Assembly: GCA_024275145.1 (NCBI GenBank)
Contig: JAJRZR010000085.1
Coordinates: 1 to 35,231, forward strand
DNA from: Deltaproteobacteria bacterium
Lineage (GTDB): Bacteria; Desulfobacterota; Dissulfuribacteria; Dissulfuribacterales; QOAL01
DNA: 35,231 nucleotides
Reading direction: 5' to 3'
The notes under the pieces were generated by a model, which made no database searches, was not told where the DNA came from, and saw nothing but the letters and a program-made list of their open reading frames with translations. The translations under genes were made by a program, and so were the position numbers. Every line of letters starts with the position of its first letter. Position 1 is the first letter of the stretch. Positions 2,788 to 17,934 of this stretch are shown here, in pieces.

Positions 2788-3731
2788 AGCTACGGCTAAA
2801 GGCCACCATAAAGGCCTTGTTGAGAATTGGTATCAGCCTTGGGCTCCTTGCCTGGCTGGTATCCCGTACAGACCCAAGGGGAATAATGGATGCCATACTG
2901 AATCTATCTCCCCTGATATGGGCCCTAGCCTTCTTGATGTATCTCGTCTCCCAGATTGTCAGCAGCCTCAGATGGTACTTCCTGGCCCACGCCCTGGGAT
3001 TTGGAGGGGCCTGGCTCATGTATCTGAAATATTACTTTGTAGGGATGTATTTCAACCTCTTCCTTCCCACGAGCGTGGGTGGTGACGTATTGAAGGTGAT
3101 ATTTCTTTCGAGGGGAACACCCAATAAACTTAGGGCCACCTACAGCATCCTTTCCGACAGGCTCTTCGGATTGGCCGCCATGTTTATCCTGGGGGCAGGG
3201 GCAGCCTTTCTCACTCCCAGTGTACTGCCATCCTATTATCGTTCAATTCTCTATATGGCAGGAGGCGGCTCTGTTGTACTCCTTCTGTTCTTGCCGCTCG
3301 TACACAAGGTCATCAGCAAACTCCTGCCGGTCGTGGGGCAAAGGATCTCGATCATCCTGGCCTTCTGGAGACAGCCAAAGGCACTGTTTGCCGGCATAGG
3401 GCTCTCCCTGGTACTTCAATCACTTGGGATGGGAGCTGTAAGCCTGCTGGCAATAGACATGGGGCTTCCACTCCCTCCAGCCTTCTACTTCGCCGCATTT
3501 CCCCTGGTGGCAATCATAACACTTCTTCCGATCAGCTTTAATGGTATAGGTGTCCGGGAGGGTGGTTTCATCTACTTTCTTGGCCTAAAGGGAGTGTCTT
3601 CCAGTCAGGCCATTACCCTGAGCCTGTGTTTTTTTGCAATCCAGGTCTCTGCCAGCCTCATTGGCGGACTTGCGTATGCCGCAGGTTTTCACAAACAGGT
3701 GATAACAACAACTGAGGACAACGGGCAGTAA
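2784..3731 (+). CDS. Multi-span membrane protein, lysylphosphatidylglycerol-synthase transmembrane / UPF0104 family
   Basis: The 315-residue protein is almost entirely hydrophobic, with about eight membrane helices. It carries the family signature NLFLPTSVGGDVLK (about 91-104) and a second conserved stretch, LPISFNGIGVREGG, in the C-terminal third. Proteins of this family include the flippase half of MprF and the AglD/YbhN-like proteins. The soluble lysyl-transferase domain is absent. Placed between a polyprenyl-phosphate glycosyltransferase and an ArnT-like transferase, it is a reasonable candidate for moving the lipid-linked sugar across the membrane; that role is inference. Translation starts at TTG 2784, inside the previous stop, with GGGAGG at 2771-2776 as ribosome-binding site. 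Confidence 0.85.
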   Translation: MKLRLKATIKALLRIGISLGLLAWLVSRTDPRGIMDAILNLSPLIWALAFLMYLVSQIVSSLRWYFLAHALGFGGAWLMYLKYYFVGMYFNLFLPTSVGGDVLKVIFLSRGTPNKLRATYSILSDRLFGLAAMFILGAGAAFLTPSVLPSYYRSILYMAGGGSVVLLLFLPLVHKVISKLLPVVGQRISIILAFWRQPKALFAGIGLSLVLQSLGMGAVSLLAIDMGLPLPPAFYFAAFPLVAIITLLPISFNGIGVREGGFIYFLGLKGVSSSQAITLSLCFFAIQVSASLIGGLAYAAGFHKQVITTTEDNGQ

Positions 3732-3735
3732 GTTC

Positions 3736-5346
3736 ATGTCTCTTTCACACGAGCTGGATCGGATAAATTACGGAAGAGACAGGGCATTCTGGTTCCTGTT
3801 GGTCGCCCTGTTGGCATGGCGCCTGTTATATCTCCTGGTCGTACCCCTGGATCTATCCCCTGACGAAGCCTATTACTGGGACTGGTCCCGTCACCTTGAT
3901 TGGGGTTACTACAGTAAGCCTCCCATGGTGGCTTGGTTGATTGGCCTGTCCACTTCCATCTTTGGGAACAATGAATTCGGTGTCAGAATGCCTGCGGCTC
4001 TACTTGGTACATGCGCGTTGGTACCTATTTTTCTGATAGGTAAAGGGATTTTCTGCCACAAGACCGGTTTTTTTTCTGCAATCGTGGTGGCTGCCTCCCC
4101 AGCCGCCTGCGTAGGGGCAATGATCATGACCATAGACGCCCCCTTGTTGTTCTTTTGGGCCGTCTCCGTGCTCTTCCTTTTTTACGCAATGGAACCGGAT
4201 GACTACTCCAGGAAAAGCGGAGGGGTTCCCAGGCGCCTCGCACCTGGAAAATACTGGTGGTATCTTACCGGACTGACAGCGGGCCTTGGACTACTGAGCA
4301 AACAGACCATGCTTGCATTCTGGCCCGTGGCCTTTCTCGTGCTGGCTGCCAGCCACTCCAAGAGACATCTCCTGAAAACCATGGGGCCCTACATCGCCCT
4401 TCTGATCTCCATCCTGGCCACGGTTCCGGTGCTCATTTGGAACTGGCATCACCAGTGGATCACCTTTCAACATACGGCCCATCACTTCAAGGGGATAAAC
4501 GCAACGGCCGGCCTTCACTTTGAAACCTTTCTCAGGTTCGTGCTGTCCCAAATAGGTCTTATATCCCCGATCACTTGGTCCCTGATGATGCTAAGCGGTG
4601 CCCTCGGGCTTGTGGTATGGGCACGATGCATACTGTCCAAAAATCCCAAGCCAGGGGGGCAAAATATCCCTTTGCTTACCGGGTTGGGCCCAGCACTTTT
4701 CTTCCTGGTAATGATCCTGAGTCTTCGCCAACAGGTAAATGCCAACTGGCCCGCCCCATTCTATCTGACATCGGCTGTCTTGGTATCGGCCTGGGCGCTG
4801 GGCCATTTCCCTGTATACGGCGCAACCGCACGGCTCAGGATCCTCTTAAGGCCCGGCCTAGTCCTGGGGGCAGCCATGGCCGTTTTTCTATACCTCGTGC
4901 CCTTGCTCCTGCCTGCCTTGCACCTCAATGGCACCGGATTCGATCCCACGGTGCGCCTGAGGGGCTGGCATGAACTTGGGACCGATGTGGGCAAGATCCT
5001 TGAAGACATGCCCAGGCCAGAAAAGACCTTTATCCTGGCCGGTAAAAGACAAATAGTCAGTGAGCTCGCATTTTACGTTCCTGGAACCCCTCGTGTCTAC
5101 AGATGGCACCATAAAGGTGGGGCCAGGGCTGTAACCAGCCAGTACGAGATATGGGGTTCTCCACTTGACAAGACCGGTTGGGACTGCCTGTTCATCTCGA
5201 AGGGAGAACGTAAGCCGCCCGGGGAGCTGGTGAAATCCTTCGAAAAAATGACCCTGGCAAGGATAATCCAAATACCCCTTGGCAATAATCGATCAAGATC
5301 CTTCAGGGTCTATTATTTGAAAAACCTTATCCGCTGGCCGGGATAA
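3736..5346 (+). CDS. ArnT/PMT-type membrane glycosyltransferase (GT39/GT83 superfamily)
   Basis: The 536-residue integral membrane protein has a first membrane helix followed by the periplasmic loop motif SPDEAYYWDWSRHLDWG (about 41-57). D43/E44 is the conserved acidic pair of GT-C enzymes, and YYSKPPMVAWLIG follows. About 10-12 membrane helices occupy residues 15-400, and the last ~130 residues form a soluble periplasmic domain. Known members take a sugar or aminosugar from a polyprenyl-phosphate donor and attach it to lipid A or to secreted proteins. The gene begins 4 bases after the flippase-like gene, and the donor could be made by the first gene of the operon. Acceptor and sugar are not determined. 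Confidence 0.88.
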   Translation: MSLSHELDRINYGRDRAFWFLLVALLAWRLLYLLVVPLDLSPDEAYYWDWSRHLDWGYYSKPPMVAWLIGLSTSIFGNNEFGVRMPAALLGTCALVPIFLIGKGIFCHKTGFFSAIVVAASPAACVGAMIMTIDAPLLFFWAVSVLFLFYAMEPDDYSRKSGGVPRRLAPGKYWWYLTGLTAGLGLLSKQTMLAFWPVAFLVLAASHSKRHLLKTMGPYIALLISILATVPVLIWNWHHQWITFQHTAHHFKGINATAGLHFETFLRFVLSQIGLISPITWSLMMLSGALGLVVWARCILSKNPKPGGQNIPLLTGLGPALFFLVMILSLRQQVNANWPAPFYLTSAVLVSAWALGHFPVYGATARLRILLRPGLVLGAAMAVFLYLVPLLLPALHLNGTGFDPTVRLRGWHELGTDVGKILEDMPRPEKTFILAGKRQIVSELAFYVPGTPRVYRWHHKGGARAVTSQYEIWGSPLDKTGWDCLFISKGERKPPGELVKSFEKMTLARIIQIPLGNNRSRSFRVYYLKNLIRWPG

Positions 5347-10764: not shown

Positions 10765-11949
10765 CTATTCATGCCAGCTAGCACCGAACACCCTTCCAAA
10801 GATCCTTTCTCCAAGCAAGAAGCCGGCAACCGTGAGAGATATTCCTCCGAGGACCACCATGAGTTCCCCGGCAGAAGGTACATAACCCAGATAACTTGGC
10901 AGGTGATCCCATCCATAGAAGACCGGAACCTGCTCGCCCCCCACAACAAGGTCATATCTTTGGAAGAAGGCACCGACGAGGGCCATGAGCGCGGCTGCAG
11001 AAAGGGCTGACATGTTTTTCATCTGGGTACCTACCAGGAGGAACAATGGGAGAACCAGACCAAGAATCACCTCGAACACCCAGAAGTTTATGGACATTGG
11101 ACCTGTTAAAAGGTTCATAGCAGCTATCTTGGCCATCTCCGTACCACCTGTAAAGAAGGAAACGAACCGCCATATTGTCGCAACGATCACCAGGAATATG
11201 GTGAGCGCCAGGATCTTTCCTGCACTCCTCACACCGTTGGCAGAACCTTCATCCAGGCTGCGACCCCGCATCCTTGCAGAGATATTGGTGAAGAGTATAA
11301 GAGCAGCCGAGCCGGTCAGGAAGGCTGAGCAGAGGAAATATACCGGTAGCTGGGCCCCGTACCAGAATGGACGGGCCGACAAGGTGGCAAAGACCGCTCC
11401 AAGATTGGTATTCGCCCCGACCTCTGCCAAGGCACCAAGTACGCCGATAGCCAGGGCAGCGCCCCAACGCCTGGTCAGGATCGCATAGAATTCAAGAAGC
11501 ATACACCCAACTGCCAAGCCATACAGTGTCCCCATCCACCATATATTAGATGTAAGGTTAGGGGATATCACGTTATATAGTAACATCCTCCAGGGATTTT
11601 CCAGTTCAAGTCCTATGACAGAGAATGCTGAAAATATCGTGATTATGGATAGATAGACCGCCCGGTTGCCCAGCGGGGCCAAAGGGGTCCCACCGAAGGC
11701 ATGCCCAATTGCTGCAAGGAGAACCAACCCTGTGGAGGTAATGGCAAAAAAGGCATAGGTGGAAATCAATACCCCCCAGGGCACCATTCTCGTAATCCCG
11801 TAGACGTGCTGATGGCCTGCAAAAAAGGCGTAGACGCCCACTCCCAGGCCCAATACTGTGAACAAGATCGCCGCAGCGGTTGCCATATTTATATTAGGTT
11901 TTACTACTGCTGGATCGGAAAATACGGAAACGGATATATTGCTAGCCAT
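10765..11949 (-). CDS. Stand-alone NrfD/PsrC-family membrane protein (module 1)
   Basis: The 394-residue protein has about ten membrane helices and the features of the NrfD/polysulfide-reductase membrane subunit family: VPWGVLISTYAFFAITSTGL, ENPWRMLLYNVISPN and WWMGTLYGL. Family members exchange electrons with quinones and normally sit beside a four-cluster ferredoxin subunit and a catalytic subunit. Neither partner is encoded here. Start ATG 11949 has GGAGG 7 bases upstream; an in-frame extension upstream has no such site. The gene follows a 77-aa membrane protein and is followed by merR. It is much more like the paralogue at 16241-17428 than that at 13440-14633, which points to a recent duplication. 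Confidence 0.93.
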   Translation of the reverse strand: MASNISVSVFSDPAVVKPNINMATAAAILFTVLGLGVGVYAFFAGHQHVYGITRMVPWGVLISTYAFFAITSTGLVLLAAIGHAFGGTPLAPLGNRAVYLSIITIFSAFSVIGLELENPWRMLLYNVISPNLTSNIWWMGTLYGLAVGCMLLEFYAILTRRWGAALAIGVLGALAEVGANTNLGAVFATLSARPFWYGAQLPVYFLCSAFLTGSAALILFTNISARMRGRSLDEGSANGVRSAGKILALTIFLVIVATIWRFVSFFTGGTEMAKIAAMNLLTGPMSINFWVFEVILGLVLPLFLLVGTQMKNMSALSAAALMALVGAFFQRYDLVVGGEQVPVFYGWDHLPSYLGYVPSAGELMVVLGGISLTVAGFLLGERIFGRVFGASWHE

Positions 11950-12013
11950 TTTTTTGTCCTCCCTAAGCAAAGGTTCATCCTGCCTGCCAATGCGAACCGC
12001 CAAAGATTAAACT

Positions 12014-12247
12014 CTATACCCCTGCCGGTTCGTCTACATCCACCTCCGAGGCAAGTGAAAAGACCGCAAAGAGGGCCGGTACGGCCGCAAATGGTCCCAT
12101 GATCAGAAACAGTAGGAACGATATCGAGAACCATACGGCCTCACTCAACCTTGAGGCCTCTGCACTGTCCTTGGCGGTCTTCTTTGTGAATCTATTGGTG
12201 GGCCTGTTGATATTTATTTTTTCAGCCAAAAGGGTCAGGGCACTCAT
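12014..12247 (-). CDS. Small membrane protein, 77 aa, first gene of nrfD module 1
   Basis: It has a polar, basic N-terminal half (1-35) followed by one long hydrophobic stretch (about 38-68, FSISFLLFLIMGPFAAVPALFAVFSLAS) that makes one or two membrane passes, and an acidic tail. AAAGGAGG sits 5-6 bases before ATG 12247, one of the best ribosome-binding sites in the window. The gene ends 64 bases before the nrfD start, so the two should be co-transcribed. I know no family for it. A small subunit or assembly partner of the NrfD protein is the simplest reading. Confidence 0.82.
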   Translation of the reverse strand: MSALTLLAEKININRPTNRFTKKTAKDSAEASRLSEAVWFSISFLLFLIMGPFAAVPALFAVFSLASEVDVDEPAGV

Positions 12248-12325: not shown

Positions 12326-12343
12326 TCCGAGCCGCCACTCGGA
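12326..12343 (-). promoter_or_regulatory. Hexaloop hairpin H1 in nrfD module 1 leader
   Basis: A perfect 6-bp stem TCCGAG/CTCGGA encloses CCGCCA on the plus strand, so the module 1 transcript shows the loop UGGCGG. It lies 79 bases before the 77-aa gene and 58 bases (centre to centre) from hairpin H2. Confidence 0.55.
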
Positions 12344-12384
12344 TAAAGAGTCTAAATGGTTTGATGTTCCGTCAGGTTTGAAAA

Positions 12385-12400
12385 GAAGGCCGCCACCTTC
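12385..12400 (-). promoter_or_regulatory. Hexaloop hairpin H2 in nrfD module 1 leader
   Basis: A perfect 5-bp stem GAAGG/CCTTC encloses CCGCCA (UGGCGG in the module 1 transcript). The stem is unrelated in sequence to H1 but the loop is identical. Confidence 0.55.
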
Positions 12401-12523
12401 CATTCAGATTTTTGGGAACCCCGTTTGCCTCTCTCACCTCCTTATTGTTTTTCTCATCCGTTTGAGGTCTGTGTCCTTTTGAAAAGGATATAGAGCAACT
12501 TGTATGCCAAGCCTTGGAAAATG

Positions 12524-12538
12524 GGCTAAAAATAAGCC
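12524..12538. promoter_or_regulatory. Dyad operator-like site S1
   Basis: GGCTAAAAATAAGCC is a near-perfect dyad, with 4-bp outer arms GGCT/AGCC plus an inner A/T pair. It matches the spaced pattern GGC-NN-A-N3-T-NN-GCC shared by the other sites in the nrfD leaders. It is the site nearest module 1. Confidence 0.45.
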
Positions 12539-12635
12539 TATTATTAAAAAATATTTTGTAATTTCAACATATTACAACTAACACAACAAAGACAACCAGT
12601 TATATTATGGACAATTTTTCTTCAATATATCTCTG

Positions 12636-12712
12636 AATAGGGCGCATTTTTAGCCATTGTTTTACCCAATAGGGCGCATTTTTAGCCCTAACCATAAAAA
12701 TGCGCCCTATTG
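12636..12712. promoter_or_regulatory. Operator cluster: 20-bp direct repeat plus 18-bp inverted copy
   Basis: AATAGGGCGCATTTTTAGCC occurs identically at 12636-12655 and 12668-12687, exactly 32 bp apart (about three helical turns). The second copy is also one arm of a perfect 18-bp inverted repeat: CAATAGGGCGCATTTTTA at 12667-12684 and its complement at 12695-12712, with a 10-base spacer. It sits just upstream of a TATAAT promoter for module 2. This has the look of a multi-site regulator-binding region. The likely binder is one of the local MerR proteins (inference). Confidence 0.72.
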
Positions 12713-12718
12713 TAGTTT

Positions 12719-12746
12719 TTGTTTAACAATTTTAACAACTTATAAT
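12719..12746 (+). promoter_or_regulatory. Candidate distal sigma-70 promoter for nrfD module 2
   Basis: TTGTTT (12719-12724) is followed at 16-base spacing by a perfect -10 box TATAAT (12741-12746). The -35 match is partial. The promoter lies immediately downstream of the operator cluster and would give a leader of about 490 bases before the 40-aa gene. Confidence 0.4.
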
Positions 12747-12838
12747 ATCACATTCAGCCCGCCAACCAGGCTGAAATCCTGCATGCTCGAGGCAACCTTA
12801 AAAAGTCCCCAATAATTTAAGCTAGATACAATTCATAG

Positions 12839-12853
12839 GGCTTATTTTGCGCC
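12839..12853. promoter_or_regulatory. Dyad operator-like site S5
   Basis: GGCTTATTTTGCGCC fits the same GGC-NN-A-N3-T-NN-GCC pattern and is preceded by CATAG, like the main repeats (AATAG). It lies about 90 bases downstream of the distal module 2 promoter. Confidence 0.45.
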
Positions 12854-13006
12854 ATAATCTCAAAAAAGGCGTGACCATATCCCTAATATACTCTTTTCTT
12901 GTTATTTCACATAATTATGCCCAGATATGTCCAGCGGGCGATAACCTTTTCCAAAAGTATAGGATTTCGAATGGACAAAAACATATTTTTTTATATTCCT
13001 TTTTTC

Positions 13007-13045
13007 TTGACAATTAGAATTTCCCATGATATGGAAAATTTCCAT
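13007..13045 (+). promoter_or_regulatory. Candidate proximal promoter with palindromic operator for module 2
   Basis: A perfect -35 box TTGACA (13007-13012) is followed after 17 bases by a weak -10, TATGGA (13030-13035). The -10 region overlaps the palindrome ATGGAAAATTTCCAT (13031-13045), which has 7-bp arms. A repressor there would block the promoter. Confidence 0.4.
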
Positions 13046-13065
13046 AGTGAAAAGGTTGATGCCAT

Positions 13066-13083
13066 TGGTCCCCGCCAGGACCA
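13066..13083 (+). promoter_or_regulatory. Hexaloop hairpin H3 in nrfD module 2 leader
   Basis: A perfect 6-bp stem TGGTCC/GGACCA encloses CCGCCA on the plus strand. The module 2 transcript therefore shows the loop that is complementary to those in the leaders of modules 1 and 3. Confidence 0.55.
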
Positions 13084-13127
13084 GACAAACAGGGCACTAA
13101 CTGATCAAAAAATCTTCACGAAAGGAG

Positions 13128-13141
13128 GGCACCGCCATGCC
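13128..13141 (+). promoter_or_regulatory. Hexaloop hairpin H4 overlapping a start codon
   Basis: A 4-bp stem GGCA/TGCC encloses CCGCCA. It covers the last base of GGAGG and the ATG of the nine-codon frame, so folding would mask that start. It lies 60 bases from H3, almost the same spacing as H1-H2. Confidence 0.4.
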
Positions 13142-13163
13142 AGTCAATGTAAGTCCCGGATGA
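13137..13163 (+). CDS. Possible leader peptide, 8 aa
   Basis: ATG 13137 has AAAGGAGG ending 8 bases upstream and reads M-P-V-N-V-S-P-G before TGA. The ribosome-binding site is as good as that of the real module genes. Right after it, GATGAC (13159-13164) and GTCATC (13169-13174) form a hairpin that includes the stop codon. It may be a translated leader controlling module 2, or the decayed start of a lost gene. Very short, so the call is tentative. Confidence 0.35.
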   Translation: MPVNVSPG

Positions 13164-13243
13164 CACGGGTCATCACCTCTTGTGAACGTTCCAGTTCAAT
13201 ATCAAGCTACATAAGGTTATTAAAAAATTAGGGAGTTACAAAA

Positions 13244-13366
13244 ATGAAAGGTGTAGTTTTTCTCGTCCTGTGGTTTACCTTTGCTGCTCTTCATACCTTT
13301 TTCGACCTGAAGGTACGTCCTTATATCCGCGAGAAGAAGGATGAATGGGGACAACAGATCGACTAA
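13244..13366 (+). CDS. Small membrane protein, 40 aa, first gene of nrfD module 2
   Basis: The protein begins with a membrane helix (residues 2-20, KGVVFLVLWFTFAALHTFF), then DLKVRPYIREKK and an acidic end. GGGAG at 13231-13235 precedes ATG 13244 by 8 bases. It lies 73 bases before nrfD of module 2 on the same strand. It has no visible sequence similarity to the 77-aa protein of module 1 but occupies the same position. I do not recognise a family. A one-helix accessory subunit of the NrfD protein is the best guess. Confidence 0.75.
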   Translation: MKGVVFLVLWFTFAALHTFFDLKVRPYIREKKDEWGQQID

Positions 13367-13439
13367 CGATCTGAACACCGGCCAAGAGATCAAACCGTTT
13401 TTTTAAACGTCAACCTCAGGGAAAAGGAGTCTGTGTCCA

Positions 13440-14633
13440 ATGATTGAACAAAAAGTAGCTTCGTTAACGGCTGATCGTCCATTAACCGTTACCTCCAGCA
13501 AACCATATAATCTGATGGTGGCTTTGTTCGGCCTGTTGGGGGCCGTGGGAATAGCCTTCGGCCTCCATGCGTTCATAGCAGGCCACGAACAGACATATGC
13601 AGTCACCAGGGAAATACCCTGGGGGCTGCTGATTGCCACCTATGTCTTCTTCGTGGTCACCTCCACGGGTCTTTGCCTCATCTCCTCCATAGGGCATGTA
13701 TTTGGTGTAAAAACACTTCAACCGATAGCAAAAAGATCGGTCTTCCTGGCCATAGCCACTATAATCAGCGGATTCATGGTCATCAGTTTCGAGATCGAGA
13801 ATCCTTGGCGCATGGCCATCTACAATGTAATCTCACCCAACCTGACCTCCAACATCTGGTGGATGGGTACGCTTTACGGGGCCTATCTCTTCTTCATGGT
13901 GACGGAGTTCGCCCTACTGCAAAGCGGCAAACACAAGGCGGCCGGCCTCCTTGGCCTCATGGGTGTAATAGCTGGGGTCGCGGCCCACAGCAACCTTGGT
14001 GCCGTATTCGGGCTTCTCAATGGAAGGGAGTTCTGGCATGGTCCTTATATGCCTATCTATTTCATCACCTCTGCGATGATGTCAGGATGCGCGGCAGTAC
14101 TCTTTTTCACATGGCTGGCCTACAGGATCAATGGGTGGGAAATGAGCCCGTCTATGCAAAAGGCGCTTTCAGCCACTGCCAAACTGGGAGCCCTTCTAAT
14201 GGCCATCATCATGTTCTTTACCACCTGGAAGGTCCTGTCAGGCATCGCCGGGAAACCTCCGGGAAAATACGAGGCCATGCTGGCCATAATAAAAGGAAAC
14301 TACGCCCTTAATTTCTGGGGTGCCGAGGTCCTTATGGGCATGGTCATTCCGTTCATCATTATCCTGGCCGTAAGGGCAAAAAAGATGAAGGCATTGTTCA
14401 TCGCAGGTGCGCTCTCCATGGTCGGTATCTTCTTCATGCGCTACGATCTGGTAGTAGTTGGACAGATAGTGCCCCATTTCCATGAAATGGCGCTCACGGG
14501 TATACCGCAATATTTCAGCTACGTGCCTTCTTTCCATGAAATAATGATCACCCTTGGGGGATTCAGCTTCTGTGCCATGGCCTTTCTCATAGGTGAAAAA
14601 CTGTTCCATGGCCATGTTTCAGAGATCCATTAG
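13440..14633 (+). CDS. Stand-alone NrfD/PsrC-family membrane protein (module 2)
   Basis: The 397-residue protein has about ten membrane helices and the same core blocks as its two paralogues: IPWGLLIATYVFFVVTSTGL, IENPWRMAIYNVISPN, SNIWWMGTLYG. It is the most divergent of the three; after residue 130 the helices differ clearly from modules 1 and 3. AGGAG at 13424-13428 is the ribosome-binding site. It follows the 40-aa gene and precedes merR by 24 bases. Quinone-linked electron transfer in the inner membrane is the known role of the family. The electron partner is not encoded nearby. Confidence 0.92.
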   Translation: MIEQKVASLTADRPLTVTSSKPYNLMVALFGLLGAVGIAFGLHAFIAGHEQTYAVTREIPWGLLIATYVFFVVTSTGLCLISSIGHVFGVKTLQPIAKRSVFLAIATIISGFMVISFEIENPWRMAIYNVISPNLTSNIWWMGTLYGAYLFFMVTEFALLQSGKHKAAGLLGLMGVIAGVAAHSNLGAVFGLLNGREFWHGPYMPIYFITSAMMSGCAAVLFFTWLAYRINGWEMSPSMQKALSATAKLGALLMAIIMFFTTWKVLSGIAGKPPGKYEAMLAIIKGNYALNFWGAEVLMGMVIPFIIILAVRAKKMKALFIAGALSMVGIFFMRYDLVVVGQIVPHFHEMALTGIPQYFSYVPSFHEIMITLGGFSFCAMAFLIGEKLFHGHVSEIH

Positions 14634-14657
14634 CAGGAGACGGTCAGGAGAAGAAAG

Positions 14658-15125
14658 ATGGTGAGTAAACAAGCACCTTGCCACGGATACCAATTGGGGA
14701 ACGGTGGCGCAGACGATCCAACCCTCAGCCTGGGCCACCTGGTCTCCCTACTTGATATATCCCCACAGACCATCCGAACCTACGAAAGGGAAGGCCTGGT
14801 CAAACCAGGCCTCTCCCAAAAGGGAAAACGCTACTCACAAAACCACGCAACGTGGATATCCTGCCTCCAGTTCATTATCCAGGAACAGGGGCTAGGGATC
14901 CCCGGCACCAAGCGGCTTCTGGACCTGGCGCCGTGCTGGGAGATCGCTGGTTGCAAACCCCATGTCAGGGATACCTGCAAGGCAAAGTCTAGCCCTGTAA
15001 ACCCGCAATCCCATGCCAGGTGGTCTAGGCACAAAATTTACGAAATGGGGACTGGCGCAGACCGGTGTATCATCAACCATCCGGACAGCCGGCCCGAGGA
15101 AGGCTGCCAAGACACCCGGCTATAA
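14658..15125 (+). CDS. MerR-family regulator, four-cysteine type (module 2)
   Basis: The 155-residue protein has a MerR helix-turn-helix at about 24-64 (LGHLVSLLDISPQTIRTYEREGLV ... GKRYSQNHATWI). The four conserved cysteines are C69 (WISCLQFI) and C93-x5-C99-x7-C107 (APCWEIAGCKPHVRDTC). It is the outlier among the three regulators, just as its nrfD neighbour is the outlier among the nrfD genes. It has an extra ~45-residue tail with two more cysteines (C72-like positions excluded). AGGAG lies 9 bases before ATG 14658. A strong terminator follows at 15277. Probably controls its own operon through the dyad sites upstream. Confidence 0.9.
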   Translation: MVSKQAPCHGYQLGNGGADDPTLSLGHLVSLLDISPQTIRTYEREGLVKPGLSQKGKRYSQNHATWISCLQFIIQEQGLGIPGTKRLLDLAPCWEIAGCKPHVRDTCKAKSSPVNPQSHARWSRHKIYEMGTGADRCIINHPDSRPEEGCQDTRL

Positions 15126-15276
15126 GGTGACTGGCTGCTTTCCCGCCACTGTGTCCCTTTTGCCCAAATTATTGCAGCCCGCAAACTTGCCAAAGATTTA
15201 AGGCGGAAGGGACGCAAATGAAAAAGAGGAGGTGGTTTTTTCATTCGGCACTTGCAACATGTAATTTTGGTCTATA

Positions 15277-15320
15277 GCCCTTGTAAGGGGTACCATCTAC
15301 CCCCTGCAAGGGCCTTTTTC
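15277..15320 (+). terminator. Rho-independent terminator after merR (module 2)
   Basis: GCCCTTGTAAGGGGTA (15277-15292) pairs with TACCCCCTGCAAGGGC (15298-15313) with one or two imperfections around a 5-base loop, followed by CTTTTTC. It is the natural end of the module 2 transcript. Confidence 0.85.
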
Positions 15321-15632
15321 TTTGACAGGGCCTTTCTTCCGATAAGCCAAGGCACCATCAAAAGGCTACGCGGTCCTGTAAGCCTATTGTGAAGACGTAT
15401 AGATAGTTGGCAGGTCCAGGCAGCCCGATACGACTGCCGTAGCCATATCTGTCTACAGGAATGCTATAGGGGGTAAAAGAGATGGACATGGGGAAGAAGG
15501 TACGAGAAGAAAGACTGTCTGTATTCGAGTGCCTAGCAACACAGTAGATGCGCCAATAACCAGATACAAAGTTCTCTTATCCGGTTACTGGCATATTTTA
15601 CTAGCAGAAGATAGAGCCTGCCAGAACAAAAA

Positions 15633-15647
15633 GGCGCAAAATGCGCC
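15633..15647. promoter_or_regulatory. Dyad operator-like site S6
   Basis: GGCGCAAAATGCGCC is a perfect dyad with 6-bp arms GGCGCA/TGCGCC and a 3-base centre. It is the most symmetrical version of the motif found in the leader of modules 1 and 2. Confidence 0.6.
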
Positions 15648-15797
15648 CATAACTTCAGCAATCCTCAAAATCAAAATCCCGAATGGACTGAAAAAAATAG
15701 CTGCCTTCCTGCTACAACAACGCCTTTTCTACATACGATCCCGTGGATCTGGTACATGATGATACCAGGATCATATAGTCCAAAAATCCAGACATAG

Positions 15798-15812
15798 GAC
15801 GCATATTGCGTC
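15798..15812. promoter_or_regulatory. Dyad operator-like site S7
   Basis: GACGCATATTGCGTC is a perfect dyad with 6-bp arms GACGCA/TGCGTC and the same 3-base centre. It is preceded by ATAG, as in the main repeats at 12636-12687. It lies about 140 bases upstream of the TATAAT box at 15949. Confidence 0.55.
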
Positions 15813-16052
15813 TTTTCTCTCCATACCGAGCGCATTTTACTCCCATTTTTCACCAAACTCCACCTTCCCGGCAAATATTGTATCTTATTTTTTTGGAAAT
15901 TAACTATGTAATTTAATAGAAAAAAACAAAGAGCATCAAAGTGGAAATTATAATTTATAACTTTTGGAATACTTTTTGCTGAACTGACAGATAAAGAGTG
16001 AAAAAATGGAGGGCAAGGGACGAAAAACACTAGCTACGGAGAAAACAAAAAG

Positions 16053-16078
16053 ATTCCCCGGGTGGCGGCCCGGGGAAT
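16053..16078 (+). promoter_or_regulatory. Hexaloop hairpin H5 in nrfD module 3 leader
   Basis: A perfect 10-bp stem ATTCCCCGGG/CCCGGGGAAT encloses TGGCGG, the same loop seen in the module 1 transcript. No T-run follows, so it is not a terminator. Downstream, AGGT/ACCT (16089-16103) encloses the related loop TTGGCTG. Confidence 0.6.
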
Positions 16079-16240
16079 GGAATTTTAGAGGTTTGGCTGA
16101 CCTACAAAAAAATGAGCGCCCTCTTAGGGAGTGTGGAAAAACAAACTCTCTATCTGATTTTTTTATATCCGTGCACCTGGTTTGTCAATAGTCAAGTATC
16201 CAAAAAACATAAATCTGATCAAAAAAGGAGGAACAGAGTC

Positions 16241-17428
16241 ATGGCAAACACATTAGCAACTGCGATATCAACATGGGCGGAGCCACGCCTGGCCAAGGCC
16301 AACATCAACATGGTCACGGCCCTGGTGGCGATGCTCACGGCCATTGGATTGGGTACGGGTGTCTATTCGTTTATAGTGGGGCATCAGCACCTGTATGCAG
16401 TAACTCGGGAAGTCCCCTGGGGGATACTGATCTCTACCTACGCATTTTTTGCAATAACCTCAACAGGGCTGGTTTTGATTGCGGCCATCAGCCATATGTT
16501 CGGAGGTACTGCCTTTGCTCCCCTTGCTAACAGGTCGGTATACCTATCGATAATCACGATTTTCTCAGCTTTCGCAGCAATCGGGGTGGAACTGGAAAGC
16601 CCCTGGCGGATGTTGATCTATAATGTAATCTCACCTAATCTTACCTCTAATATATGGTGGATGGGTACCCTTTATGGTCTTGCCGTTGGCTGTATGCTGG
16701 TGGAATTTATCGGCATCCTAACAAGCAGATGGGGACTGGCACTGGCTGTTGGTGTATTGGGAGCATTGGCTGAGGTTGGAGCAAATACCAACCTTGGAGC
16801 GGTCTTCGCCACCTTGACTGCCCGACCCTTCTGGTACGGATCCCAGCTTCCGGTCTTCTTCCTCTGCTCTGCCTTTGCATCAGGTGCCGCTGTTATCATC
16901 CTGTTCAGCTACCTTGGGGCCAAGATGCGGGGCACAGAGATGTCCGAGGGAAGCTTCAAGGCACTCCAAAGCGCTGGCAAGGTACTTGCTTTGACCATCT
17001 TCCTGCTGGCAGTGGCCATTACCTGGAGAATGATTTCTTTCTTCGTCGGAGGAACCCAACTCGGACAACTTGCCGCCCTGAACCTGCTTAAGGGTCCCCT
17101 GTCCGTCAACTTCTGGGTATTCGAGATAGTCATCGGGATCGTATTGCCCTTCGTCATCTTGGTAGGCACACAGATGAAAAACCCAGCGGCCATGTCAACT
17201 GCCGCTCTCATGTACCTGGTCGGCGGATTCTTTAATCGTTTCGATATAGTAGTTGCTGGTCAACAGGTCCCCGTCTATTACGGATGGGACAATCTGCCCA
17301 GCTACATGGGTTACTTCCCGTCCGCAGGTGAATTGATGGTAGTTATGGGCGCCATCAGCCTCACACTACTGGGCTTCCTGCTGGGAGAGAGATTCTTTGG
17401 AAAGGTCTTCACCTCTGGCCACCATTAA
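16241..17428 (+). CDS. Stand-alone NrfD/PsrC-family membrane protein (module 3)
   Basis: The 395-residue protein has about ten membrane helices with the family blocks VPWGILISTYAFFAITSTGL, ESPWRMLIYNVISPN and WWMGTLYGLAVGCML. It aligns nearly end to end with the module 1 protein, including NTNLGAVFATL and the C-terminal PSAGELMVV. ATG 16241 has GGAGG at 16227-16231; an in-frame upstream extension to 16112 has no ribosome-binding site and is rejected. Unlike modules 1 and 2, no small membrane protein gene precedes it. It is followed by a hairpin and merR. Electron partners are not encoded nearby. Confidence 0.93.
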   Translation: MANTLATAISTWAEPRLAKANINMVTALVAMLTAIGLGTGVYSFIVGHQHLYAVTREVPWGILISTYAFFAITSTGLVLIAAISHMFGGTAFAPLANRSVYLSIITIFSAFAAIGVELESPWRMLIYNVISPNLTSNIWWMGTLYGLAVGCMLVEFIGILTSRWGLALAVGVLGALAEVGANTNLGAVFATLTARPFWYGSQLPVFFLCSAFASGAAVIILFSYLGAKMRGTEMSEGSFKALQSAGKVLALTIFLLAVAITWRMISFFVGGTQLGQLAALNLLKGPLSVNFWVFEIVIGIVLPFVILVGTQMKNPAAMSTAALMYLVGGFFNRFDIVVAGQQVPVYYGWDNLPSYMGYFPSAGELMVVMGAISLTLLGFLLGERFFGKVFTSGHH

Positions 17429-17517: not shown

Positions 17518-17934
17518 GTGCATAGCTCAAAGGCAGATTTCGACATCATAAACAAGGAAACACGGGGCAAGGTGGACGGTGCCGATATCGTTGCCCGGGC
17601 CGGAAAGGGCTTCCAGGGAGTAGACCCGGACAACCCTATTTTCCCAATTGGTACTGCCGCAACTATGCTTGAGGTCCATCCCAGGACACTGCGAATCTAT
17701 GAAAACGAAGGACTTGTAACGCCCATGCGCAAGGGAGGTAGAAGGTATTACTCCCTTAACGATATCCAGTGGATTTCGTGCCTGAGGCACATGATACACG
17801 ATCAGGGGATAAGTATCGCCGGGATAAAAAAATTGCTGCAATATACCTCTTGTTGGAATATAGTTGAATGTCCCATGGAAAAAAGAAAGAATTGTACCGC
17901 GTATCGAACACCCAATACCAGGGCAAAGGGCTAA
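17518..17934 (+). CDS. MerR-family regulator, four-cysteine type (module 3)
   Basis: The 138-residue protein has a helix-turn-helix at about 44-85 (IGTAATMLEVHPRTLRIYENEGLV ... GRRYYSLNDIQWI) and cysteines C88, C112, C118 and C126 in the shared pattern (TSCWNIVECPMEKRKNC). It is close to the module 1 regulator across its whole length, including the VDPDNPIFPIG / IDPEKPMFSIG lead-in. It begins at GTG 17518 with AAAGGA upstream. It follows its nrfD by 89 bases and is closed by a strong terminator. Probable autoregulator of the module, with the cysteines as sensor (inference). Confidence 0.92.
   Translation: MHSSKADFDIINKETRGKVDGADIVARAGKGFQGVDPDNPIFPIGTAATMLEVHPRTLRIYENEGLVTPMRKGGRRYYSLNDIQWISCLRHMIHDQGISIAGIKKLLQYTSCWNIVECPMEKRKNCTAYRTPNTRAKG

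Follow-up and report, generated by a model that had tools for sequence, protein, structure and literature searches.

The targets of ANTAR proteins are paired hexaloop hairpins whose loops require A in the first and G in the fourth position, and the Qrr RNAs of Vibrio are sigma-54-dependent small RNAs (sRNAs). In OxyS-fhlA and RNAIII-rot, trans-encoded sRNAs make loop-loop kissing contacts (PMC8383071), and Dv_sRNA2 of Desulfovibrio vulgaris is a target of the response regulator DVU0679 (PMC3333781). A system that resembles each of these in part was found in a 35,231 nt stretch of DNA from a Deltaproteobacteria bacterium (contig JAJRZR010000085.1, hereafter the window), in which the leaders of three nrfD modules carry hairpins with one of two hexaloops, UGGCGG (class 1) or CCGCCA (class 2). 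Both classes recur in related genomes, and in Desulfobulbales UGGCGG is also the loop of a predicted sRNA of ~80 nt. It is likely that the two hairpin classes, with their complementary loops, serve trans-acting RNA-RNA control of nrfD-B operons.

As in OxyS-fhlA and RNAIII-rot, the loop of the sRNA is complementary to the leader of its predicted target, an additional contact lies near the ribosome binding site, and repression by blocked initiation is the model. The present system differs in that one fixed hexamer pair is kept across tens of genomes, with variation in both stems, in that the UGGCGG loop is also present in mRNA leaders of the paralogous operon, and in that Hfq (PF17209) was not found in the five genomes tested, controls being positive. 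The Qrr RNAs are resembled in the predicted sigma-54 promoter, activator-dependent transcription and Rho-independent terminator; the targets differ, however, the RNAs studied here have no Rfam match, and the likeness is one of these features. Similarly, Dv_sRNA2 is an sRNA of a sulfate reducer under a response regulator but has no nrfD link, and was compared by description rather than by sequence. Paired hexaloop hairpins in leaders are shared with the ANTAR targets, but the loops found here have U or C at position 1 and C at position 4 and so lie outside that class.

The nrfD genes of the window are of two types, A (modules 1 and 3) and B (module 2), which are ~41–44% identical to each other. 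The sense strand reads UGGCGG upstream of nrfD-A and CCGCCA upstream of nrfD-B. An earlier note on this DNA had described five hairpins in the three nrfD leaders, and all five were recovered at the same positions and with the same stems, the centres being 58 (H1/H2) and 60 (H3/H4) bases apart. Viewed more widely, one class belongs to nrfD-A and the sRNA and the other to nrfD-B. The note made no mention of the sigma-54 promoters, the enhancer palindromes, the Desulfobulbales sRNA or the short open reading frame (ORF) that follows the CCGCCA hairpins. The hairpins are:

12326..12343, minus strand: H1, UGGCGG hairpin, TCCGAG-CCGCCA-CTCGGA, 6 bp, in the module 1 leader (short ORF - nrfD-A)
12385..12400, minus strand: H2, UGGCGG hairpin, GAAGG-CCGCCA-CCTTC, 5 bp plus an outer G.U, first hairpin past the module 1 sigma-54 promoter
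13066..13083, plus strand: H3, CCGCCA hairpin, TGGTCC-CCGCCA-GGACCA, 6 bp, in the module 2 leader
13128..13141, plus strand: H4, CCGCCA hairpin, GGCA-CCGCCA-TGCC, 4 bp, in the module 2 leader, directly 3' of the Shine-Dalgarno (SD)-like AAAGGAGG
16053..16078, plus strand: H5, UGGCGG hairpin, ATTCCCCGGG-TGGCGG-CCCGGGGAAT, 10 bp, in the module 3 leader

CCGCCA/TGGCGG forms the loop of a perfect stem (4–10 bp) at 5 of its 32 sites in the window. At the stem rate of the window itself, where perfect stems of at least 4 bp around a 6-nt loop occur at 151 of 35,231 positions, ~0.14 such loops were expected at 32 sites; for stems of at least 6 bp, ~0.01 were expected and 3 seen. The runner-up hexamer reached 3 (at least 4 bp) or 2 (at least 5 bp). 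As the hexamer was picked post hoc, the relatives provided an independent test. At their nrfD loci, 19 CCGCCA hairpins with stems of at least 5 bp were found compared to 3 for the next hexamer, and stems of at least 6 bp enclosed CCGCCA in 23 of the 80 named loci compared to 4. In fact, CCGCCA was the sole enriched hexaloop at these loci, and it recurs across several orders. The idea that nothing is present other than ordinary terminators with chance loops is hence scarcely credible: many class 1 hairpins are terminators and end in a U-tract, but ordinary terminators keep no loop sequence across families, and the class 2 hairpins are short, often A+T-rich, devoid of U-tracts and placed ahead of start codons.

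A covariance model (R1) was built from 18 CCGCCA/TGGCGG hairpins. In the genome that holds the window (G000, 2.65 Mb), R1 retrieved H5, H1 and H2 at 29–36 bits, the next match anywhere scoring ~21 bits; R1, which prefers G-C as the closing pair, missed H3 and H4, the latter being the top match of the target model in this genome. As to further trans targets, those viewed among the other matches of the target model in six genomes were mostly weak and set in coding-like context. Across 60 related genomes, matches to R1 fell almost entirely within nrfD loci, the exceptions checked being L069 near a contig end, L070 between porin and antiporter genes, L083 (26 bits) in a coding region and L073 beside ftsH, the last of which is a full sRNA adjoining its usual neighbour. 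Thus CCGCCA hairpins are specific to these loci and not a general intergenic feature, a possibility that the earlier note had raised against itself. Its description of conserved RNA hairpins with a constant loop and a covarying stem agrees with what the relatives display, and orthologous leaders retain both loop and pairing. In the sister species (G001) all five hairpins are kept with stems changed in a compensatory manner, such as TCCGAG/CTCGGA to TTCGAG/CTCGAA in H1 and ATTCCCCGGG to AGCCCCTGGG in H5.

A stem selected as RNA tolerates G.U pairs, which are read as A.C on the opposite strand. Single internal stem mismatches in class 1, read on the UGGCGG strand, comprised 8 G.U versus 0 A.C, and those in class 2, read on the CCGCCA strand, 17 G.U versus 1 A.C; several class 1 wobbles go back to a single inherited event, which lowers the effective numbers. 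This polarity indicates that both classes are RNA hairpins, encoded on opposite strands and carried by separate transcripts, with exactly complementary loops. Perfect inverted repeats also occur as DNA features, yet it is very improbable that these are DNA sites in which variable inverted arms flank an asymmetric core, or that they act as DNA hairpins, as the arm sequences are unrelated, orientation tracks gene type and the mismatches are G.U rather than A.C on the predicted RNA strand, a polarity that largely contradicts such readings.

The pair UGGCGG/CCGCCA forms 6 bp with -9.9 kcal/mol as a free duplex. The same polarity lends support to the earlier suggestion that loops of different leaders could kiss in trans, the physical contact being a prediction. 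The target variants CCGCUA (L097, L137, L141) and CCGUCA (L108) retain six pairs through G.U, which appears to back pairing in a supporting rather than decisive way, transitions being common. The same variants bear on whether the loop is instead read by a hairpin-binding protein without any RNA-RNA pairing. A constant loop on a free stem is typical of protein-bound RNA hairpins, e.g. the ANTAR targets, but with the classes on opposite strands the same protein would need to recognise UGGCGG as well as CCGCCA, and the loop variants observed are those that preserve pairing; we regard such a protein as quite improbable. Pairing of the two RNAs in trans is further consistent with their co-occurrence. 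Among 54 full loci, 33 had both the sRNA and CCGCCA, 10 had neither, 8 had the target only and 3 the sRNA only (Fisher p 3e-4, uncorrected for relatedness), and two of the three loci counted as sRNA without CCGCCA carry CCGCUA.

Nearly all class 1 hairpins have a predicted sigma-54 site on the UGGCGG strand, ~40–110 nt upstream of the first loop, mostly scoring 12–14 out of a maximum of 14, while none of the class 2 hairpins has a sigma-54 site on the UGGCGG strand. Only two top-score sites exist in the 35-kb window, one before H2/H1 and one before H5. Upstream of the sigma-54 sites lies a palindrome, GGCGCA-N3-TGCGCC, often in tandem with copies 31–33 bp apart, at a density of 4.3/kb versus 0.6/kb elsewhere in the same loci. 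The corresponding features of the window are:

12494..12509, minus strand: predicted sigma-54 promoter TGGCATACAAGTTGCT, 14/14, module 1
12641..12687, no strand: two enhancer-like palindromes GGCGCATTTTTAGCC at 12641 and 12673, 32 bp apart
15965..15980, plus strand: predicted sigma-54 promoter TGGAATACTTTTTGCT, 14/14, module 3
15798..15843, no strand: enhancer-like palindromes GACGCATATTGCGTC (15798) and AGCGCATTTTACTCC (15829), at a spacing of 31 bp, located upstream of the sigma-54 site of module 3

The palindromes at 12641 and 12673 precede the module 1 sigma-54 site by 130–165 bp; two further copies are found, a weaker one at 12839 (12839–12853) and a perfect one at 15633–15647. In relatives, the same tandem spacing is seen upstream of the sRNA promoter, and many Desulfobulbales loci have a palindrome also 190–240 nt upstream of the sRNA hairpin. 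The palindromes are putative sites of an enhancer-binding protein, and a gene for a protein with PAS, sigma-54-activator and Fis-HTH parts adjoins nrfD-B in Desulfobulbales. Single copies elsewhere in G000 (C1:6182, C14:5087 and C107:6327) may mark further regulon members.

In Desulfobulbales, the class 1 hairpin is the predicted terminator of the ~80-nt sRNA, whose gene has ftsH on one side and the short ORF - nrfD-B operon on the other. Its layout is a sigma-54 site, ~50 nt of transcript and a 9–14 bp stem with the UGGCGG loop, usually followed by a U-tract. The predicted promoter lies ~55–75 nt ahead of the loop in nearly all sRNA loci, and in most of them stem and U-tract make up a Rho-independent terminator, some loci lacking the U-tract. 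The 5' part folds as a separate hairpin, GCUACUC...GAGAUAGC, and a UUCUCC-type linker precedes the terminator. Within 18 terminator sequences, changes on both sides were seen in 10 of 11 pairs and 99% of cells were paired; as these sequences were selected for stem and loop, only the pattern of change is informative. The R2 model detected the sRNA in 11 of 39 genomes around G171, nine times at ~0.8–1.2 kb from nrfD-B. Of the remaining two, G432 has nrfD-B close to the start of its contig, and in G430 the loop is changed and nrfD-B is not close. The phylum-wide R2 scan scored 12 candidates per genome, so that its low count does not estimate distribution. A stand-alone sRNA was not found in G000 by R1 or R2, its UGGCGG hairpins being in leaders only. 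No Rfam 15 family matched at sRNA or target in seven sRNA loci, a tRNA was the sole match in the window at gathering thresholds, and no relevant literature was found on UGGCGG loops, CCGCCA hairpins or nrfD/merR of Desulfobulbaceae.

Three observations on this RNA stand apart. The G430 copy (L187, G430:C185:21141-21219) is a full model match with the loop CCGUGG. In Desulfobulbus Pc512_bin139 (L145) the sRNA loop is altered (3105–3179) and the target CCGCCA is unpaired (short ORF leader at 3765), as if both were decaying together. A large conserved non-coding RNA between the two hairpins was considered and rejected, as only the sRNA, its promoter and the palindromes align.

The class 2 hairpins precede a membrane ORF of ~40 codons ahead of nrfD-B, at 23–165 nt before the ORF start; in module 2 the CCGCCA loops precede that start by ~110 and ~170 nt. 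CCGCCA is present in 44 of 58 short-ORF leaders and is their second commonest hexamer after AAGGAG. The target stems, which were selected for stems, covary, the inner four pairs being always paired with 6–15 double changes each. An unlinked second copy of the short ORF and nrfD-B occurs at each of three loci (L195, L196 and L197), the sRNA being on another contig. There a sigma-54 site on the sense strand comes before CCGCCA, which in L195 tops a 12-bp stem; the CCGCCA strand is therefore the predicted transcript, and the target need not adjoin the sRNA. The genomes recorded with a second nrfD-B that has a CCGCCA leader and lies on a contig separate from that of the sRNA are G171, G305 and G434.

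In several lineages, a second contact is predicted. The sRNA linker is complementary to the SD region of the short ORF in L102, L110, L112 and L131 (GCUUCUCC with GGAGAAGC) and nearly matches it in L139, while in L129 and L133 linker and SD region are both altered (GCUUGUUC/GGACAAGC and GCUUGUCC/GGACAGGC, respectively). The complementary run averaged 7.5 in matched versus 6.5 in mismatched pairs, a difference reached in 0 of 10,000 permutations with relatedness not removed. The loop and SD contacts stand in the correct order for an antiparallel complex. The linker complementarity favours repression through blocked initiation, as in OxyS-fhlA and RNAIII-rot, over the same kissing pair acting to activate or stabilise, by opening or protecting the nrfD-B leader or by coupling nrfD-A and nrfD-B mRNAs for joint subunit production. 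Activation of this kind would suit a CCGCCA hairpin that is often beyond the ribosome footprint, given its distance to the start, and sigma-54-driven second nrfD-B copies would allow sRNA and target to be made together; with complementarity pointing to occlusion of the SD region in several lineages, we consider it unlikely.

In the repressing circuit, an enhancer-binding protein would switch on sigma-54 transcription of the UGGCGG-bearing RNAs, which would be the ~80-nt sRNA and some nrfD-A leaders in Desulfobulbales (L198, L199) and the module 1 and 3 leaders in the window's species. The CCGCCA hairpins would form the 5' leader of the short ORF - nrfD-B - merR mRNA. The two loops would then kiss in trans, with linker-SD pairing added in several lineages, and as an outcome nrfD-B translation would fall and nrfD-A rise. 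The paired RNAs would thus probably tune the choice between versions of a respiratory membrane protein.

Several observations weigh against this circuit. A paired compensatory change within both loops was not found among the loci, and relatedness inflates the counts, the association and the permutation values. CCGCCA is missing from some nrfD-B leaders (L104, L113, L122, L124 and Desulfofustis-type loci) and from the own-genome nrfD-B paralogue on C39, eight loci have CCGCCA and no local sRNA, and Desulfobulbus proper (L140, L147, L149) shows a poor SD contact. The second nrfD-B copies carry sigma-54 promoters themselves, which is a poor fit to a simple switch of A on and B off, and on this account the sign of regulation is uncertain. 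Finally, the U-rich side of H5 and of L053/L054 is on the CCGCCA strand, and these hairpins therefore do not terminate the UGGCGG transcript.

In the window's species, the UGGCGG hairpins of modules 1 and 3 are located ~60–155 nt past the predicted start sites, taken as ~12 nt beyond the -12 element. H2 is followed by a weak UUUU in this species only, G001 being without it, and with the U-rich side of H5 opposite, both look like leader hairpins rather than terminators. Here an mRNA leader would take the role of the sRNA. More tentatively, and with less than even confidence, we propose that the nrfD-A leader kisses the nrfD-B leader in direct mRNA-mRNA regulation of paralogous operons, the Desulfobulbales sRNA being an alternative form.

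If true, the circuit would comprise a new sRNA family and post-transcriptional control in bacteria of the sulfur cycle, for which little is known of regulation by base pairing, and would operate in genomes in which Hfq was not found. A frozen hexaloop pair on freely covarying stems would make an unusually clean natural case of kissing loops, mRNA leaders sharing the loop of an sRNA suggest regulation between mRNAs, and the selection of NrfD-type membrane subunits would be tied to sigma-54 signalling in a directly testable way.

The nrfD-B leaders showed further features. No convincing site was seen when the module 2 leader was scanned for sigma-70 promoters. Before H3 (13004–13050) an inverted repeat, TTTCCCATGATATGGAAA, lies beside TTGACA; it is kept in the sister species and found at the same place in L095, and may be the module 2 promoter/operator. 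An extended match to the 16S rRNA 3' end, AAGGAGGUG(A), occurs from a few to ~45 nt upstream of the hairpins in the nrfD-B leaders of L103, L107, L127, L128, L139, L140, L142, L147 and L152, and in the window at 13120–13130 and in the module 1 leader upstream of H2. These sites have neither a start codon nor a conserved reading frame and are possibly ribosome standby sites. An upstream ORF from the SD-like AAGGAGGTG was rejected by eye, no frame being kept in several loci.

The genes of the three modules are:

12014..12247, minus strand: short membrane ORF, 77 aa, head of module 1, identified from sequence
10765..11949 (ORF listed 10765-12003), minus strand: nrfD-A, module 1 (PF03916)
13244..13366, plus strand: short membrane ORF, 40 aa, MKGVVFLVLWFTFAALHTFFDLKVRPYIREKKDEWGQQID, head of module 2
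13440..14633, plus strand: nrfD-B, module 2 (PF03916)
14658..15125, plus strand: merR-type regulator after nrfD-B (PF13411)
16241..17428, plus strand: nrfD-A paralogue, module 3 (PF03916)
17518..17934, plus strand: merR-type regulator, module 3 (PF13411)

The 77-aa ORF of module 1 had no match in Pfam or NCBIfam, and the NCBIfam models nearest to these NrfD proteins were HmcC and DsrP, far under cut-off. At 16112–16130, ATGAGCGCCCTC behind an A-run looks like the beginning of the short ORF of module 1 (ATGAGTGCCCTG), of which module 3 may retain a decayed copy.

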